Shown here: positions 1 through 7,782 of the stretch, in pieces
Numbering within the stretch: position 1 is the first letter of the stretch
Layout: every line of letters begins with the position of its first letter
Origin: Clostridiales bacterium
Lineage (GTDB): Bacteria > Bacillota > Clostridia > Christensenellales > Pumilibacteraceae
Direction of reading: 5' to 3'
Assembly: GCA_022511445.1 (NCBI GenBank)
Contig: JAFLVE010000011.1
Location: 1 to 64,000 of the forward strand
DNA: 64,000 nucleotides
Made by a program: the position numbers and the translations under genes
The notes under the pieces: model-generated
What the model saw: only the letters and a program-made list of their open reading frames with translations
What the model was told of the DNA's origin: nothing
Database searches by the model: none

Positions 1-41
1 TATAGTGTATATAAAAAAGCAATCGGGTAATAATCGTAAGC

Positions 42-563
42 ATGAAAACGAACAAATTGTATGTTAAAATCCTGTCCTTTGTGTTGTCTTTCTGCATGAT
101 TATTTGTTTACCTATAATAATTTTGTCGTGTAAGGAAAATAATACATACAGCGGAGAACTGCTTCGACTGCATATACGCGCCAACTCGAACAGCGAGCCC
201 GACCAAGCCGTCAAGCTGAAGGTGCGCGACAGCATCAATCAATACCTTGCGGAAAATATCACAGCAACCTCGTTTGCGGCGGCGTACGCCGAAATAGGGT
301 TGAGACTCAAAAAGATTTCCGATATTGCGGACAACGTACTGCAAGCCAACGGTTTTTACTACGGCGCAAAGGCGGAATTAGCTAACGAGTATTTCCCGAC
401 AAGAGTGTACGGCAACGTGGAGGTCAAGGAAGGATTCTACGACGCGCTCATTGTTAAGCTCGGCGAAGGGAAGGGGGATAACTGGTGGTGCGTTGTATAT
501 CCGCCGTTATGCTACGGCGACAAGTTCGAGTACAAGTCGATATTTGCGGAGCTGTTCGGCTAA
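42..563 (+). CDS. spoIIR: Stage II sporulation protein R (SpoIIR)
   Basis: This 173-residue secreted signalling protein is made in the forespore. In the family it triggers SpoIIGA to process pro-sigma-E in the mother cell. It has a short basic N-terminus and a hydrophobic segment at residues 9-29, which ends in LSC and could serve as a signal anchor or lipobox. The family block LRLHIRANSN (41-50) follows, then DQAVKLKVRD, and near the C-terminus GEGKGDNWWCVVYPPLC (141-157), which is diagnostic. Length is slightly below the usual 200 or so residues. No strong Shine-Dalgarno precedes the ATG. It lies 24 bp upstream of sleB, so this end of the window is a sporulation/germination cluster. Identification is by motif and is firm. 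Confidence 0.93.
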   Translation: MKTNKLYVKILSFVLSFCMIICLPIIILSCKENNTYSGELLRLHIRANSNSEPDQAVKLKVRDSINQYLAENITATSFAAAYAEIGLRLKKISDIADNVLQANGFYYGAKAELANEYFPTRVYGNVEVKEGFYDALIVKLGEGKGDNWWCVVYPPLCYGDKFEYKSIFAELFG

Positions 564-587
564 AAAAATAATTACGGAAAAACGGAA

Positions 588-1712
588 ATGACAAAGGTTT
601 TAAGACGACAGGTTATAGCGATTTTATTTGCTCTCATTATGCTTGCGGCGCTGGTATCTTACGCGCCGATCGCGCATGCGGAGGTAGCCGCGGGCAACAG
701 TTTCGGCAACGTAGCGGCGGTGCAGGCGCGGCTTAAAACGCTCGGCTACTACACGTCGAGCGTAGACGGCGTGTGGGGAAGCGGAACGACGTCCGCGGTT
801 AAGCGTTACCAAAGCGCAAAAGGGCTTACCTCGGACGGCGTTGTGGGCAGCAAAACGGCAAGCGCGCTCGGCATAAAGCTCCCTATATCGGGCGGAATTT
901 CGTACGGGAAAACGACGGCAAACGTTGCGGCGTTGCAGGCTCGGCTGCGTACTCTCGGCTACTACAAGTCGAAGGTTGACGGCGTCTGGGGCAACAAAAC
1001 GCTTGCCGCGGTTCTTTCCTACCAGTCGGCGGCGGGTCTGACCGTAGACGGCGTGGTGGGCGCGGGCACGTGCGGTAGGCTTGGAATAACAATGTCAGGC
1101 TCCGCGCGCTCGGGCGGTATAAGTAAGGGTAAAACCTCCGACAACATTAAAAAGGTGCAGACCGCGCTTAAAAACGCGGGGTACTATACTTCGAGTGTGG
1201 ACGGGCTGTGGGGCAACAATACTATGTGCGCCGTAATGGCGTTTCAGTCCGATAAAGGGCTTACCGTGGACGGCACGGTGGGCGCCTCTACGGAGCGTGC
1301 GCTCGGAATAACGCTTTCTTCGGGCTCTACCGGCACGGGCGGCGGAGCGGGCGGACTGTCCGACTCCGATCTTACTCTTCTTGCTCGGTGTGTGTACGGC
1401 GAATCGCGCGGGGAGCCGTATACCGGTCAGGTCGCGGTGGCGGCGGTCGTCCTTAACAGGGTGCGTTCGTCCAAATTCCCCAACACGATTTACGGCGTTA
1501 TTTATCAGGCGGGCGCCTTTACCGCGGTTTCCGACGGGCAGATAAATCTAACGCCCAACGAGTCGGCGTACAGAGCGGCGCGCGACGCCGTAAACGGCTG
1601 GGATCCCACGGGCGGTTGCTTGTACTATTACAATCCCGCAACCGCAACGTCGAGCTGGATTTGGTCGCTTACAGTTCATTTGAAAATAGGAAAGCACAAT
1701 TTCGCGCTTTAA
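588..1712 (+). CDS. sleB: Spore cortex-lytic enzyme SleB with three peptidoglycan-binding repeats
   Basis: This 374-residue cell-wall hydrolase would act on spore cortex peptidoglycan during germination. A signal peptide covers residues 1-31, ending in AHA. Three peptidoglycan-binding repeats follow at about 41-96, 111-167 and 185-241, each carrying a GYY..S.VDG.WG core. A Gly/Ser linker then leads to the SleB catalytic domain (about 259-374). That domain contains YGESRGEPYTGQVAVAAVVL, with the conserved catalytic Glu at about 272, and ends in IGKHNFAL. Typical SleB has one binding domain, so three is an expanded arrangement. The next gene is ypeB, the usual operon partner needed for SleB stability, which supports SleB over another SleB-domain hydrolase. 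Confidence 0.93.
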   Translation: MTKVLRRQVIAILFALIMLAALVSYAPIAHAEVAAGNSFGNVAAVQARLKTLGYYTSSVDGVWGSGTTSAVKRYQSAKGLTSDGVVGSKTASALGIKLPISGGISYGKTTANVAALQARLRTLGYYKSKVDGVWGNKTLAAVLSYQSAAGLTVDGVVGAGTCGRLGITMSGSARSGGISKGKTSDNIKKVQTALKNAGYYTSSVDGLWGNNTMCAVMAFQSDKGLTVDGTVGASTERALGITLSSGSTGTGGGAGGLSDSDLTLLARCVYGESRGEPYTGQVAVAAVVLNRVRSSKFPNTIYGVIYQAGAFTAVSDGQINLTPNESAYRAARDAVNGWDPTGGCLYYYNPATATSSWIWSLTVHLKIGKHNFAL

Positions 1713-1751
1713 TATATAACGGGAAAAACATAATTAAAAGGATAAAAAACT

Positions 1752-2861
1752 ATGACAAACAATCTCAACGAAAAAAGAGGAATGATAATTTCCGTCTCGA
1801 TAATCGTGTCGCTTCTGTACGCTTTGGCGGTGCTTACCGTCGGAATGGTGTTTGCGGTACGCAACAAAATTATCGACGACAAGAAAGAGGAGTCAAAAGT
1901 GTCGGCGCAATTATTGGTCGACGCGAGCAGCGGATTAAAGAACAAGGCGTCCGCTCTGCGCCTTTGCAATAACGAGGAAACCGCCGATAAACTCCTTGAC
2001 GAGGCGCTTATCTACGCCGTACGTGCGGAGACCGCTCTCGAGTGCGACCACGGCGTTTGGTGCGAATGCAGGGCAAAGGAGGCGTTTCTGAACGACGCGT
2101 GCGCCCTTCTTTCGGGAAAGACGAGCGAAGCGATGAAAAAATCGGACTTGCTTTACGCGTACTCGTCGGCGCTTTTGGACTCGCTGTCTAACTCGACCGA
2201 GTTCGAATATAACGGCGAGCTTTTTGAGCAAAAGGACGAGGACGATCACAGCGAGCCGACAGATGAGGATATCGAAAAAGCAAAGGCGCAAATCGACAAG
2301 ATACTGTCCGCGGACAGCGCCGAATATGCGGGTGCGTACCACGGTAAAATTTCGTTCGAGATAACCTCGGGCGGACGGCACGGCTATGCGGTAGTCAAGG
2401 GCGACAAAATATACGAGTTCGCGTTCAGCGGCGGAGCGGGCGACAAGGGCGAGGAAAAAGAGGACGCCGAGAATATTGCTTTATCAACCGCTGAGAAGTG
2501 CGGTTTCGACGGGCTTACGGTCTACTCCTCGTCGAGCGTCGGCGGCGTTACCACGGTTAAGATGTGCCACGAGATAGACGGCGCGGCGTGCCGCGACGAG
2601 TGCGCGAGCGTTACGATAGAGGGCGGCGAGGCGATAGGCTTTACTGCGGGCGAGTGCGAGCATAATCATAAGCTCCCCTCCGTCAAGGTAAAGGAAGCCG
2701 ACGCGCGCAAAAATTCGGGCTCGGAGTCAGAGGGCAGGCTTGTAACCACCTTCGACGGCACGCGCGACAGAGTGTGCTACGAGTACGTTGTAGAATGCGA
2801 GGACGGGATTCACTACGTTTACGTTTGTGCCGAAAACGGCGAACAAATGCAAATAAGATAA
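1752..2861 (+). CDS. ypeB: Germination protein YpeB-like
   Basis: This 369-residue membrane-anchored protein sits directly after sleB with a 39-bp gap and an AAGGA-type ribosome site. A single membrane segment lies at about residues 10-36. A helical region follows (36-160), then an acidic Glu/Asp linker, then two beta-rich segments that look like the PepSY repeats of YpeB. In the family YpeB binds SleB and keeps it stable and correctly placed in the spore. The protein is shorter than the usual 450 residues, and the middle repeat region is reduced. Sequence similarity visible by eye is moderate; the call rests on domain layout plus the sleB neighbour. Confidence 0.8.
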   Translation: MTNNLNEKRGMIISVSIIVSLLYALAVLTVGMVFAVRNKIIDDKKEESKVSAQLLVDASSGLKNKASALRLCNNEETADKLLDEALIYAVRAETALECDHGVWCECRAKEAFLNDACALLSGKTSEAMKKSDLLYAYSSALLDSLSNSTEFEYNGELFEQKDEDDHSEPTDEDIEKAKAQIDKILSADSAEYAGAYHGKISFEITSGGRHGYAVVKGDKIYEFAFSGGAGDKGEEKEDAENIALSTAEKCGFDGLTVYSSSSVGGVTTVKMCHEIDGAACRDECASVTIEGGEAIGFTAGECEHNHKLPSVKVKEADARKNSGSESEGRLVTTFDGTRDRVCYEYVVECEDGIHYVYVCAENGEQMQIR

Positions 2862-2871
2862 CCGAAAAAGG

Positions 2872-2900
2872 TTGCAAAAAATAATATAAAGTGATACAAT
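2872..2900 (+). promoter_or_regulatory. Sigma-A promoter of the corA leader
   Basis: TTGCAA at 2872-2877 and TACAAT at 2895-2900 are separated by exactly 17 bp. The predicted start, about 2907, falls on the AGGAGG that precedes the short leader ORF, so the mRNA would begin almost at the ribosome site. Confidence 0.7.
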
Positions 2901-2917
2901 GAATGTAGGAGGACACA

Positions 2918-2950
2918 ATGGACAGTTCCGACAGTAGTTGTAGAGAATAA
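2918..2950 (+). CDS. Ten-codon leader peptide upstream of corA
   Basis: A ten-codon ORF (MDSSDSSCRE) starts at an ATG preceded by a near-perfect AGGAGG at ideal spacing, five bases after it. It is the first ORF on the predicted corA mRNA. Salmonella corA is known to be controlled by a short leader ORF (corL) coupled to Rho, so a regulatory leader here has precedent. There is no homology to corL, only a similar arrangement. Whether it is translated is an inference from the strong ribosome site. The magnesium-transporter gene itself has no visible Shine-Dalgarno. Confidence 0.5.
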   Translation: MDSSDSSCRE

Positions 2951-2952
2951 AC

Positions 2953-2987
2953 AAGCGCCTTTGGATTAAACCGGGCGCTTTGGCCCG
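2953..2987 (+). promoter_or_regulatory. Two mutually exclusive hairpins between leader ORF and corA
   Basis: Hairpin A pairs AAGCGCC (2953-2959) with GGCGCTT (2974-2980). Hairpin B pairs CGGGC (2972-2976) with GCCCG (2983-2987). They share bases 2974-2976, so only one can form at a time. Neither is followed by a clear T-run, which favours translational or Rho-type control over a simple intrinsic terminator. Confidence 0.45.
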
Positions 2988-3001
2988 TTGTAAAAAGCGT
3001 T

Positions 3002-3940
3002 ATGTTAAAAATCTATGCAATGGAAAGCGGAAAACGCGAGTTATCGGAGTGTGAGGAAATCGCCAAGGGTTGCTGGATTAATTTGTCCAACCCGTCCGAC
3101 CTCGAGGTTCAGCAGGTCTGCGAAAAAACTAATATACCGGAAGATATGATAAAAGCGGCGCTCGACGAGGAAGAACGCGCTCATATCGACGTTGACGACG
3201 ATAATACCCTTATCGTTATAGATATACCTGTCATAAACGAGGAGAAGGACGCGTACGTATATTCTACGCTCCCTCTCGCTGTTTTGTTTAATACGGATTA
3301 TTTTATCACCGTATGTCTGCGCGAGACAATCGTCCTCGAGCGGTTTATTAATAACACAATAAGAAACTTCGACGTTAATAAGCGCACGCGGTTTATTTAT
3401 CAGATTCTCTACACCAACGCGACCATGTATCTCCACTATCTTAAGATGATAGACCGCACAGCTAACCGCATACAGTCGGCGCTGCACCGCTCGCTTAAAA
3501 ATACCGAACTGTTACAGCTTCTCGACCTCGACAAAGCGCTTGTTTACTTTTCTACGTCGCTAAACGCCAATCAGATTGTTATAGACAGATTGAGACAGCT
3601 TAATACCGTTAAGCACTACGAGGACGACAACGACCTCCTCGACGACGTAATCATTGAGAACAAGCAGGCGATAGAGATGGCGTCAATACACCGCGAGGTT
3701 TTGTCGGGCACAATGGACGCGTTCGCCTCGGTTATTAGCAACAACCAAAACATCGTTATGAAGCTCCTTACGGCTATAACCATTTTGCTGACTATCCCTA
3801 CTCTTATTTCCGGTCTTTGGGGAATGAACGTGGGCGTACCGCTTGCCGACAATCCGTACGGGTTTTGGATAATAATAGGAATCATCGCCGCAATACTTAT
3901 CCCCGTTACAATTATCATGATAAAGAAAAAAATGTTTTAG
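3002..3940 (+). CDS. corA: CorA-family divalent cation transporter
   Basis: This 312-residue protein would move Mg2+ (or Co2+/Ni2+) across the inner membrane as a pentameric channel. A long cytoplasmic domain (1-250, acidic and helical) is followed by two membrane segments near the C-terminus (about 253-272 and 288-306). The signature GMN at 274-276, in GLWGMNVGVP, sits between them. The C-terminus is basic (IKKKMF), as is usual. Length matches the family. The start at 3002 gives MLKIYAM, typical of clostridial CorA, although no ribosome site is visible. It is preceded by the leader ORF and hairpins described separately. Substrate preference cannot be read from sequence. Confidence 0.92.
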   Translation: MLKIYAMESGKRELSECEEIAKGCWINLSNPSDLEVQQVCEKTNIPEDMIKAALDEEERAHIDVDDDNTLIVIDIPVINEEKDAYVYSTLPLAVLFNTDYFITVCLRETIVLERFINNTIRNFDVNKRTRFIYQILYTNATMYLHYLKMIDRTANRIQSALHRSLKNTELLQLLDLDKALVYFSTSLNANQIVIDRLRQLNTVKHYEDDNDLLDDVIIENKQAIEMASIHREVLSGTMDAFASVISNNQNIVMKLLTAITILLTIPTLISGLWGMNVGVPLADNPYGFWIIIGIIAAILIPVTIIMIKKKMF

Positions 3941-3988
3941 CTGCGCGGAAATACGGTACTTCAAAATTAATTATTAACGAGGTGAATT

Positions 3989-4543
3989 ATGACAGCAAAG
4001 GAATGTATGCTATCGCGCCGCAGTACGCGCGCCTTTAAGCCCGACAAGGTGGATAAAGCGCTTTTGGAGCAAATAGCGGAAGCCGGACTTTATGCTCCGT
4101 CCGCCATGAACGAACAGCCCTGGACGCTTACCGTCGTGACCAACGCCCAAAAGCTTGCCGCCGTTAACGCCGCGGTTAAAAAGTATTTCGCCTCCACGGG
4201 GGACGAGCGTCTTGCCGCCCGTGCCGCCGACAAAAATTACTGCTGTTACTACGGCGCGCCCGTTCTTATTATAGTGTCCTGCGAGGCGGGCTCGCTGTAT
4301 CCCGTAGAGGACGCGTCGTGCGCGCTCCAAAACATATTCCTCTCCGCGCACGAATTGGGGCTTGGCAGTTGCTGGATAAATCAGCTCGGCGGCGCCGCGT
4401 GCGACTATCCCGCGGTGCGCGAGCTTCTCGACGGCTTCGGAGTGCCGTCCGCCGACAAGGTGTACGGCTGTGCCGCAATCGGTTATATCGCGTCGGAAAC
4501 GGAGACAAAGCCTCGGCGCGGAAAGGTAAAATTCGTAGATTAA
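3989..4543 (+). CDS. Nitroreductase-family flavoprotein
   Basis: This 184-residue FMN-dependent oxidoreductase is of nitroreductase fold. The N-terminus has the family pattern (RRSTRAF, about residues 9-15) where the flavin phosphate is bound. APSAMNEQPW follows, and a C-terminal half holds the ELGLGSCWI segment typical of the group. A good GAGGTG ribosome site lies seven bases upstream. It stands alone between corA and the next promoter. Proteins of this size reduce nitro-aromatics, quinones or flavins in anaerobes. The physiological substrate is not predictable. Confidence 0.88.
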   Translation: MTAKECMLSRRSTRAFKPDKVDKALLEQIAEAGLYAPSAMNEQPWTLTVVTNAQKLAAVNAAVKKYFASTGDERLAARAADKNYCCYYGAPVLIIVSCEAGSLYPVEDASCALQNIFLSAHELGLGSCWINQLGGAACDYPAVRELLDGFGVPSADKVYGCAAIGYIASETETKPRRGKVKFVD

Positions 4544-4597
4544 CGATTAAAATACCATATATTTACAGTCGTTTTTGTATAATTTCCCTCTCTGTTA

Positions 4598-4632
4598 TTG
4601 ACAAAACCCAATCGCGGTTGTATAATTGACCT
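4598..4632 (+). promoter_or_regulatory. Promoter giving a leaderless mRNA
   Basis: TTGACA (4598-4603), 17 bp, TATAAT (4621-4626), then six bases and the ATG at 4633. Transcription would start on or next to the A of ATG, and there is no room for a Shine-Dalgarno. Confidence 0.75.
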
Positions 4633-6816
4633 ATGGGTGTTTTTGATTTTTCCAAAGTCGAAAATATAATATTCGTAGCGTCGACTGGCGTAGCGTCTTT
4701 ACTTATGCTCGTTTTTCTGTTGACGGCTATCATTAAAGGCAAACACAAGACGGGCGCTTTCGATATTATTGCACGAATTCTTGCCGTGCTCGTGTTTATT
4801 GCGGCGCTTGCGCTTTCTGCCGCCGCCGTTCTTTCCATGCTTAACGGCGCTTACCGCATTGACGCAACCGCGGAGGAAGCCTCGCTTGTTTTCGGCGAGA
4901 CCGTTATAGCTCTCCCGTTACCTCAATATTTCGTCATTCTCAAGGATCTTATAGGCGACGTGCTGTGTTTTGCGCCCGCGCTTTTGTCGCTGTTGGTGCT
5001 TATCGTGGACGGCGCACTCGCGCGTAAAAACTACGAAGCTCCCGCAAAGGGCAAAGCCAAAAAGCCCGCCGTGGACAACCGTACCCCCGAGCAGAAAAAG
5101 CGCGACGCGGAGATAGAAAGAATTCGTCGCCTCGCTTCTTCCGCAGTTAAAAAGACTTCGGCGGCGGCAGGCGATACCGCAAGGGATTCCGCAAAGGACA
5201 AAGCGGAGCCCGCAAAGACAGAGGCGCCCGCGGCGGCGCAGGAAAAGGAAGAGTCCGCCGATTTCGATTGGCGCGTAAGTCCTCCGCCTAAACCCCAACA
5301 GACCGAGTTTGTCGGGCTTTCCGAGGAGAGCGGCAACGACTCGTTCGATTCGTTCGACAGCGATTTCGAGGAAACGGCTTCGCCCAAGGGCGACGGCGCG
5401 TTCGACAGCTTTACCGTTTCGGAAAGCGGCGGCGACGAGGAGGAAAAGCCCGTCGATTCCTTCGAGAGCGAGTCCGAGGAAAACAACGAGTATGTCGTGG
5501 AGGAAGAGGAGCCCGAACAAGACTCTTACGACGAGACTGTTTCAAGCGAAGCCGATCAAACGGAAGATATCGGAGAATCGGTCGGCGGCTACGACGAGCA
5601 AGTAGCGGAAGGCGAAACCGAGGAACAATACGAAACCGAGGAAGAGGAAGCCGAGCAAGATACATACGACGAGCAAGACGCTTACGACGAAGAGGAAACG
5701 GATAGCGAAGCCGAGCAGGGCGAGTTTACCGAGACCGTCGACACTCTTTACAACCCCGACGAGACGGATATACCAAATGCCGAGAGCGCTCAAAACGTTG
5801 AGCCTTACTCCGTAAACGATACCGAAGACGTGGAATCGCTCTACAATCCTAACGAGACCGATATCTACGGCGACGAGCAATACGGTAACAGCGACGACGC
5901 CGCAGAAGAGTCGGACGACAACGTAGAGGAAGTCGCAATCGGCGGCGAGAGCGATATTGACGAGTATGAGGAATACGATGACTCCGACGAAACGGACGGC
6001 GTTTCCGAACAGTCTTACGACGAGACGGTTGCGGACGGCTACGACGAGACCGAGGATTTCGGTATCGGGTCGGACGACGATATTGAGCCGAACAGGGATA
6101 TTTACATTCCCGAAATTCGTACTATAACAAGACAGCGCACCGATTCGACCGAACAGGAGCCCGAGACGGCGTACTCTCAAGAGGACGAAAGCGACGAGCC
6201 GCTTGTGCTCGACGAGCCCGTTCTCGACGAGCCGATTATACCGGAGGAGCCTACGGTCGAAGAGCCCGCAGTCGAGGTGCCCGAACGACCTGTTTATACC
6301 GCACCCGAAAAGCCGGTATACGAGGAGCCTGTTAAGCCGGTAAAACCCGCGGAGCCTGTACGGCATACGCCTCCGCCCGCGCGGCCCGAGCCTCCTCGAC
6401 CCGCCGCGGAGACAAAGCGCCCCGAAAGGCGAGTAGGTCCCGACCCGAATGCAAAGAGCGCGCACGACGAAACCGTCAAAAAGAAGATAGAGCAGGTTAG
6501 GCTGGCGCACGAAACGGAGGCGGCAAAGCGCCGTGAATCGGTTAAAAAGCCGACGGAAAAGGTTGAGCCGAAGGCGGCAAGACCGAGCGGCAGGAGCGCG
6601 ATTCCCGTCGACGTGCCCAAAAAGACCGTTTCTTCGTCAAGGCAAACGGGCGGCGCGAGGACTACTGGTGAGACGAGCGACAAGAAAAAGCTTCCGCTTA
6701 CCCGCCGCTACGTAATTATCAACAGGACCAATGCGGTCAACGTTTTCAACGATTATCTTAAAGAGCGCGGAAAAGAAAAGCTCGATTCAATGGTCACCAC
6801 AATCATACTCAAATAG
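4633..6816 (+). CDS. Large acidic membrane protein of unknown function
   Basis: I do not recognise this 727-residue protein. Three hydrophobic segments lie in the first 120 residues (about 10-35, 45-70 and 95-125), followed by a Lys-rich stretch. A very acidic, probably disordered region (about 200-520) is rich in Glu, Asp, Ser and Tyr, with recurring YDET and two copies of an LYNP.ETDI motif. A Pro/Glu/Val-rich section then leads to a basic tail. The last 40 residues look folded and end in LDSMVTTIILK. This is the layout of a membrane-anchored scaffold with a long flexible arm and a C-terminal binding module, but that is inference. It is read from a promoter that leaves no leader and is followed 15 bp later by the ROK kinase gene. 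Confidence 0.8.
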   Translation: MGVFDFSKVENIIFVASTGVASLLMLVFLLTAIIKGKHKTGAFDIIARILAVLVFIAALALSAAAVLSMLNGAYRIDATAEEASLVFGETVIALPLPQYFVILKDLIGDVLCFAPALLSLLVLIVDGALARKNYEAPAKGKAKKPAVDNRTPEQKKRDAEIERIRRLASSAVKKTSAAAGDTARDSAKDKAEPAKTEAPAAAQEKEESADFDWRVSPPPKPQQTEFVGLSEESGNDSFDSFDSDFEETASPKGDGAFDSFTVSESGGDEEEKPVDSFESESEENNEYVVEEEEPEQDSYDETVSSEADQTEDIGESVGGYDEQVAEGETEEQYETEEEEAEQDTYDEQDAYDEEETDSEAEQGEFTETVDTLYNPDETDIPNAESAQNVEPYSVNDTEDVESLYNPNETDIYGDEQYGNSDDAAEESDDNVEEVAIGGESDIDEYEEYDDSDETDGVSEQSYDETVADGYDETEDFGIGSDDDIEPNRDIYIPEIRTITRQRTDSTEQEPETAYSQEDESDEPLVLDEPVLDEPIIPEEPTVEEPAVEVPERPVYTAPEKPVYEEPVKPVKPAEPVRHTPPPARPEPPRPAAETKRPERRVGPDPNAKSAHDETVKKKIEQVRLAHETEAAKRRESVKKPTEKVEPKAARPSGRSAIPVDVPKKTVSSSRQTGGARTTGETSDKKKLPLTRRYVIINRTNAVNVFNDYLKERGKEKLDSMVTTIILK

Positions 6817-6831
6817 ATAAGAGGTAAAACT

Positions 6832-7782
6832 ATGTATTGCGTCGGAGTGGATATCGGCGGAATGTCGATAAAAGCCGGTGTTGTAGACGCCAAAGGCAAT
6901 ATTTTAAAGAAAGAAAGCATTCCTACCGTAGTAGATGACGGTCCCGATAAAATTATCGCCGATATGGGCGAGCTCATTTTGCGCCTTGCCGACCCCAAGG
7001 ACAGGGATTTTGTGGGCATAGGCTTGGGTTGTCCGGGCGCTATCAATTCGGCGGCGGGAACGGTCGATCAGGCGTACAACCTTAAGTGGACGAAAGTTCC
7101 GCTTGCCGAAAAGCTGTCGAGATATATAAGCCGCCCCATAGTCGTAAGCAACGACGCCAATGTAGCGGCGCTCGGCGAAACCATGTTCGGCGTAGGTAGA
7201 ACGTACAGTAACACGGTAATGATTACGCTCGGTACCGGCGTAGGCGGCGGAATAATCATAGACAACAAGCTGTACGAGGGCAACGAGAGCAAGGGCGGCG
7301 AACTCGGACATATGGTTATTTCCGTGGACGGCGAGCAGTGTACCTGCGGGCGCAAGGGCTGTCTCGAGGCGTATTGCAGTGCGACCGCGCTTATACACGA
7401 TACTCAAAAGGCTATGAAGGCGGACAAGTCCTCCAAAATGTGGGAGTACGCTCAAGGCTCGCTCGACAAGGTCAGCGGAAAAACGGCGTTTGAATGCAGT
7501 AAGCTGGGCGACGAGAGCGCGATTAAGGTAGTAGACCGCTTTGTTAAATATCTCGGCGAGGGCATGCTCAATTTCGCAAACATATTCAGACCGCAGGCGA
7601 TTATACTCGGCGGCGGAATTTGCGCTCAGGGCGCGTACCTTATAAACAAGCTTAAGGACTACTGCGTAGAACGCGATTACGGCTTTGCCGGTATGCCGCG
7701 CTTTGATATCCTTACCGCGCAGCTCGGCAACGACGCGGGCATAATCGGAGCGGCGGCGCTCATTTTTTCCAACAATCAGTAA
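6832..7782 (+). CDS. glcK: ROK-family glucokinase
   Basis: This 316-residue sugar kinase would phosphorylate glucose with ATP. The N-terminal phosphate loop VDIGGMSIKAG (6-16) has Met where Thr is usual. The catalytic Asp lies in SNDAN (106-110). The ATP-binding GTGVGGG spans 134-140. The ROK zinc site is present: His160 plus CTCGRKGC (170-177). Length and motif order match bacterial glucokinases such as GlcK. An AGAGG ribosome site lies just upstream. It may be cotranscribed with the acidic membrane protein. A ROK kinase for another hexose (for example N-acetylmannosamine or fructose) cannot be excluded. Confidence 0.88.
   Translation: MYCVGVDIGGMSIKAGVVDAKGNILKKESIPTVVDDGPDKIIADMGELILRLADPKDRDFVGIGLGCPGAINSAAGTVDQAYNLKWTKVPLAEKLSRYISRPIVVSNDANVAALGETMFGVGRTYSNTVMITLGTGVGGGIIIDNKLYEGNESKGGELGHMVISVDGEQCTCGRKGCLEAYCSATALIHDTQKAMKADKSSKMWEYAQGSLDKVSGKTAFECSKLGDESAIKVVDRFVKYLGEGMLNFANIFRPQAIILGGGICAQGAYLINKLKDYCVERDYGFAGMPRFDILTAQLGNDAGIIGAAALIFSNNQ

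Follow-up and report, generated by a model that had tools for sequence, protein, structure and literature searches.

A candidate translation-responsive leader peptide before corA in a clostridial genus and related acidic leaders before Mg2+ transporter genes

The Mg2+ transporter gene corA in the stretch of clostridial DNA analysed here (64,000 nucleotides, hereafter the window) is preceded by a ten-codon ORF, and we put the probability at roughly 0.5 that this ORF belongs to a translation-responsive cis-regulatory leader akin to MgtL and MgtQ, in which low Mg2+ would abort translation of the leader and lead the RNA to switch corA on. The leader ORF, its Shine-Dalgarno (SD) sequence, two RNA pairings referred to below as hairpin A and helix C, and the missing SD of corA itself are conserved in the genus, and leaders of the same class are linked to Mg2+ transporter genes in other bacteria. 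That corA might be under an independent, non-enteric form of leader-peptide control had been proposed in an earlier, sequence-only reading of this DNA; retention of the leader at 11 of the 12 corA loci of the genus strongly supports such control as a prediction.

The assignment of the downstream gene (Table 1) is straightforward: its product matches the Pfam CorA domain over residues 22–308 (E 5e-55), which places it among the CorA transporters, and the GMN motif can be read in the sequence. It is the single CorA-family gene found in the assembly that holds the window (1.86 Mb in 118 contigs, about 92% complete), and a search for MgtE in the same assembly found none. The stop codon of the leader and the start of corA are 51 nt apart. 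The SD of the leader, described as near-perfect in the sequence-only reading, proved to be perfect. The same reading had noted that corA lacks a visible ribosome site, which holds true not only for the window but for every one of the 11 leader-bearing loci in the genus. At the other loci of the genus, −35 and −10 boxes comparable to those in the window lie directly 5′ of the leader, as judged by eye.

Table 1. Positions in the window of the leader, the RNA pairings and corA.
Feature	Position	Strand	Remarks
Promoter TTGCAA-17-TACAAT, sigma-70-type	2872-2900	+	9/12 consensus positions; consensus match only
Leader SD AGGAGG	2907-2912	+	perfect; sole SD in leader region; 5 nt spacer to ATG
Helix C, 5′ side ACAAUGG	2915-2921	+	contains leader start codon; RNAalifold consensus
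Leader ORF MDSSDSSCRE, ten codons	ATG 2918 to TAA 2950	+	Asp2, Asp5, AGU serine codons
Extended B, long hairpin pairing corA start region	2952-3005	+	lowest-energy fold of this stretch in the window
Hairpin A	2953-2959/2974-2980	+	begins two bases past leader stop; conserved
Hairpin B core	2972-2976/2983-2987	+	cannot form together with A or C
Helix C, 3′ side CCGUUGU	2985-2991	+	ends 10 nt before corA AUG
corA ORF, 312 aa, Mg2+ transporter	3002-3940	+	without SD of its own

Among 20 genomes of the genus, 12 carry corA; the eight without a CorA match (G002, G003, G009–G011, G013–G015) either take up Mg2+ by other means or are represented by incomplete assemblies. Eleven of the 12 corA loci have kept the leader ORF in the form MD[SLG]SD[SGD]S, after which the peptide varies up to the stop codon. 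Asp2, Asp5 and Ser7 are invariant, Ser4 shows synonymous changes only (TCC/TCA/TCG), and an SD is found at the same place in all 11 (GGAGG, or AGGAG in L005). At the twelfth locus, L010, there is no leader, and GGGAGG stands ten bases ahead of the corA start codon. This distribution of leader and SD over the 12 loci is as one would expect if translation of corA requires the leader. The sequence-only reading had staked its case on close relatives keeping the ORF or the stems, and they keep the ORF as well as hairpin A.

The RNA upstream of corA is predicted to adopt mutually exclusive folds, for which hairpin A is well supported and extended B and helix C are moderately so. Hairpin A is more stable than dinucleotide-shuffled sequences both in the window (p 0.017) and over the 11 sequences of the genus (mean z −3.3). 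The two competing hairpins of the sequence-only reading correspond to A and core B: they do exclude each other, because positions 2974–2976 are used by both, but core B as originally drawn is no better than shuffles (mean z −0.4 in 11 sequences) and was replaced by extended B. The latter is significant over all 11 sequences together (Fisher p about 1e-4; about 5e-4 once two near-duplicates are removed) and reaches p < 0.05 singly in 4 of the 11 (p 0.098 in the window). It extends over the corA start by means of species-specific sequences such as GGCGCUUAAAC:GUUUGAGUGCU in L008 and GCAUA/CGUAA:UUACG/UAUGC in L005. The leader of the window as a whole is not unusually stable (z −0.87).

The hairpin pair had been taken to be the switch, and it would indeed form part of one, but the pairing of the leader start codon with a strand shortly before corA, here called helix C, had been overlooked. 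Its seven pairs are unbroken in 11/11 sequences (RNAalifold), and the distance from its 3′ side to the corA AUG is 9–12 nt in all of them. Helix C is compatible with A, and A and C each exclude B. Covariation of helix C within the genus is weak because changes are one-sided only, with no pair altered on both sides, and taken one by one, most sequences do not show significant complementarity. In L005, an altered 3′ side gives a longer helix (p 0.042 to 0.003). An unrelated helix occupies the place of helix C in another genus, g6 (p 0.005 in L031 and 0.19 in L034), and leader-bearing corA genes without an SD essentially come from these two genera, both of which have helix C. The predicted energies of A plus C and of B lie within about 2.5 kcal/mol of each other in 5 of the 11 sequences (L003, L005, L006, L012, L013); B is favoured by 5 kcal/mol in the window and by 9 in L008, and A plus C in L004, L007, L009 and L011.

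From these elements a mechanism can be sketched by analogy with the enteric leaders. We infer that Mg2+ is the signal and is read through ribosome drop-off, which of the folds turns corA on, and that corA is served by the SD of the leader. A ribosome would load at the leader SD and synthesize an acidic peptide containing Asp2 and Asp5, partly from AGU codons. With enough Mg2+, it would get to the stop codon abutting hairpin A and open A, whereupon the freed strand could form extended B, burying the corA start and keeping corA off. With little Mg2+, ribosomes would be lost or arrested within the first part of the leader, leaving A closed and preventing B. Helix C might then pair the leader start codon with the strand before corA, which would hide the leader start, leave the corA start accessible and bring the leader SD beside it, turning corA on. 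In this state corA would be served by the SD left free beside helix C, with about 2 nt, the helix and a further 9–12 nt between this SD and the AUG in all 11 sequences. The SD at 2907–2912 is thus possibly common to leader and corA, and an SD-less corA that borrows the SD of its leader would represent an unusual route to mutually exclusive reading frames.

Support for a connection with Mg2+ comes from a survey of 80 named corA loci, nearly all from Clostridia and Bacilli with a few from methanogens, in which the starts of leaders and transporters in relatives were assigned by script. Short SD-led ORFs beginning M[DE]x[DEGV]P precede 30 of the 80 corA genes (shuffle mean 0.07; 3/1926 control windows), and the wider motif M[DE]xx[DP] precedes 43 (shuffles 0.6; control windows 11/1926), leaving 37 loci without a leader of the latter type. 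Since the motif had been set on corA, mgtE offered a fair and independent test: 15 of 30 clostridial mgtE loci, chosen by Pfam family, have M[DE]xx[DP] leaders (shuffles 0.34; control 1/466). A nucleotide pattern scan of 291 genomes gave no more total matches than its reversed control, the pattern being too loose, and was informative only through sorting by SD and ORF length; among 30 scan loci examined in this way, all seven short SD-led ORFs precede corA (4), mgtE (2) or the gene for a CorC/HlyC-type membrane protein (1). The leader-bearing loci scanned in other genera of the family have different leaders (MDDYPS.., MEDGHSPRK.., MEDPGRSKH..) followed by intrinsic terminators, and corA leaders of Geobacillus, Anoxybacillus and Bacillus have EPEPE or EPDP further into the peptide. 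Throughout Bacillota, the peptide motif is constant and the RNA structures vary. The leaders of the window's genus have lost the proline found in most others, and two spaced aspartates without proline may destabilize the ribosome weakly.

The part of the peptide that follows the acidic residues has a codon signature. At residues 6–10 of 65 distinct leaders, the serine codon AGU occurs 61 times versus 7.4 expected and the arginine codon CGA 21 times versus 3.3, the expectation being the transporter ORFs' own usage; z-scores for these codons overstate significance because the leader sequences are related. UUA and UGU are over-used more mildly at the same residues. The AGU/CGA bias persists when this genus is left out, when each distinct N-terminus is represented by a single leader, and when the mgtE leaders are taken by themselves. 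As the two codons can swap order and vary in position but are always in frame, reading of codons is favoured over an RNA motif, and these wobble-read codons may be slow or Mg2+-sensitive.

The nearest analogues are probably the acidic enteric leaders MgtQ and MgtL rather than corL, with MgtQ as the best precedent; two features of their type, an SD-led short ORF before an Mg2+ transporter gene and acidic residues in its first codons, are found here. In Salmonella, MgtQ is an 8-aa ORF with AGGAGG whose Asp2 and Glu5 cause ribosome drop-off, and alternative stem-loops hide the mgtB RBS (PMC8092293). The leader in the window shares with this element of the mgtC–mgtB intergenic region the very short ORF, the AGGAGG, Asp2, an acidic residue 5 and, as predicted, alternative stem-loops by which the transporter start region is hidden or freed. 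It differs in phylum, in the transporter (corA or mgtE, not mgtB), in the missing SD of corA, in a helix that takes up the leader start codon and in the AGU/CGA signature. MgtL, the mgtA leader of E. coli and Salmonella, contains a destabilizing EPDP (PMC11282234); an N-terminus with acidic or proline residues is common to it and the Bacillota leaders, with a literal EPDP in the Bacillus corA leader L121, but MgtL works through Rho-accessible RNA, and Rho was not found in 20 genomes of the window's genus. Structured RNA before corA is also known as the gammaproteobacterial corA motif, reported only from Gammaproteobacteria and metagenomes (PMC6429828). The M-box (RF00380) likewise controls Mg2+ transporter genes in cis, but the leader of the window is an ORF and has no RF00380 match.

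Enteric corL/corA, where a leader ORF before corA is combined with two exclusive RNA folds (PMC11552253), resembles the window in this arrangement and in the gene concerned; the sequence-only reading had pointed to corL and Rho of Salmonella. In contrast to the leader described here, CorL has a UUG start, depends on Rho and differs in sequence and structure. The RNA-binding domain of Rho (Rho_RNA_bind) scored above cut-off in 0/20 genomes of the genus, as against 9 of 14 control genomes, and the single sub-threshold match, in G001, looks like RNase R. Rho has apparently been lost across the whole genus, the lack of a match above cut-off in these 20 genomes makes a Salmonella-type mechanism unlikely, and we consider Rho-dependent control of corA extremely improbable; in its mechanism, the analogy was not supported. 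No intrinsic terminator was found between leader and corA in the window, and the remainder of the genus yielded weak candidates only, in L012 and L013. An RNA-only Mg2+ riboswitch whose conserved sequence is merely ORF-like also appears very unlikely: the strong nucleotide conservation of CAATGGACAGTTCCGAC, the metal-transporter context and helix C would suit it, but relatives whose flanking structure is unrelated still have the start codon, the SD and the frame, the leader varies only synonymously or conservatively at Ser4 and the Asp positions, and the constancy of the peptide motif amid differing RNA structures argues against it as well. A search of Rfam for known riboswitches gave nothing credible and no family match, including for the M-box, which was absent from window positions 1–7000 even at E up to 10.

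Two further explanations were weighed. The leader might control corA by ribosome-coverage attenuation or coupling and respond to a signal other than Mg2+, such as the charging of serine or arginine tRNAs or the speed of elongation over AGU and CGA. An extreme, in-frame and order-swappable bias is typical of codon-reading attenuators, yet the leaders from the pattern scan precede Mg2+-linked genes only, and sensing of tRNAs leaves unexplained the fixed placing of acidic residues and proline at positions 2 and 5, so that we regard this explanation as unlikely. Alternatively, the leader could sense nothing and merely boost corA through reinitiation or as a standby SD. This would agree with a corA gene that lacks an SD and begins 51 nt after the leader stop, but it accounts neither for the acidic residues, the codon bias and the competing hairpins nor for the link to Mg2+ transporters whose genes have their own SD, and it seems rather improbable.

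Within the papers that could be searched, Mg2+ sensing by ribosome-destabilizing leader peptides is documented in enteric bacteria, and a search of the open-access literature found no earlier description in Bacillota. It is possible, if doubtful, that Bacillota harbour a widespread, undescribed class of Mg2+-sensing leaders that combine an acidic and proline-containing chain with slow AGU and CGA codons, and that helix C in the window's genus hands one SD from leader to corA. The leaders across Clostridia suggest that Mg2+ is gauged by how well the ribosome completes a peptide; together with the other form in Bacilli, their presence before corA and mgtE would make this a general bacterial strategy, probably one that arose more than once. 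The many natural leader sequences would then provide material on what enables a nascent chain to destabilize the ribosome, and the AGU/CGA signature is a new and directly testable clue.

CNNM/CorC genes were considered as a third target class, but the survey found that leaders are not general there; at L143, a CNNM/CorC-like protein whose ORF starts at locus position 239 has MDADPLS as its own N-terminus, including a serine encoded by AGU, and in this resembles the leaders. Upstream of mgtE, the loci L146, L163 and L178 have M[DE]xx[DP] leader ORFs. An M-box riboswitch is present in L146, directly upstream of the leader, and in L178, where, as in L146, two Mg2+-linked layers of control may be combined within one mRNA. 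Upstream of mgtE in L184 and L185, a hairpin, AGACCGCCU..AGGAGGUCU, is followed by UUUUU; it hides the mgtE SD and resembles a terminator. In the window, the region 5′ of the leader encodes stage II sporulation protein R (42–563), a SleB-like cell-wall hydrolase with PG_binding and Hydrolase_2 domains (588–1712) and, after it, a product without a Pfam match (1752–2861), which by position might be a YpeB-like spore protein.
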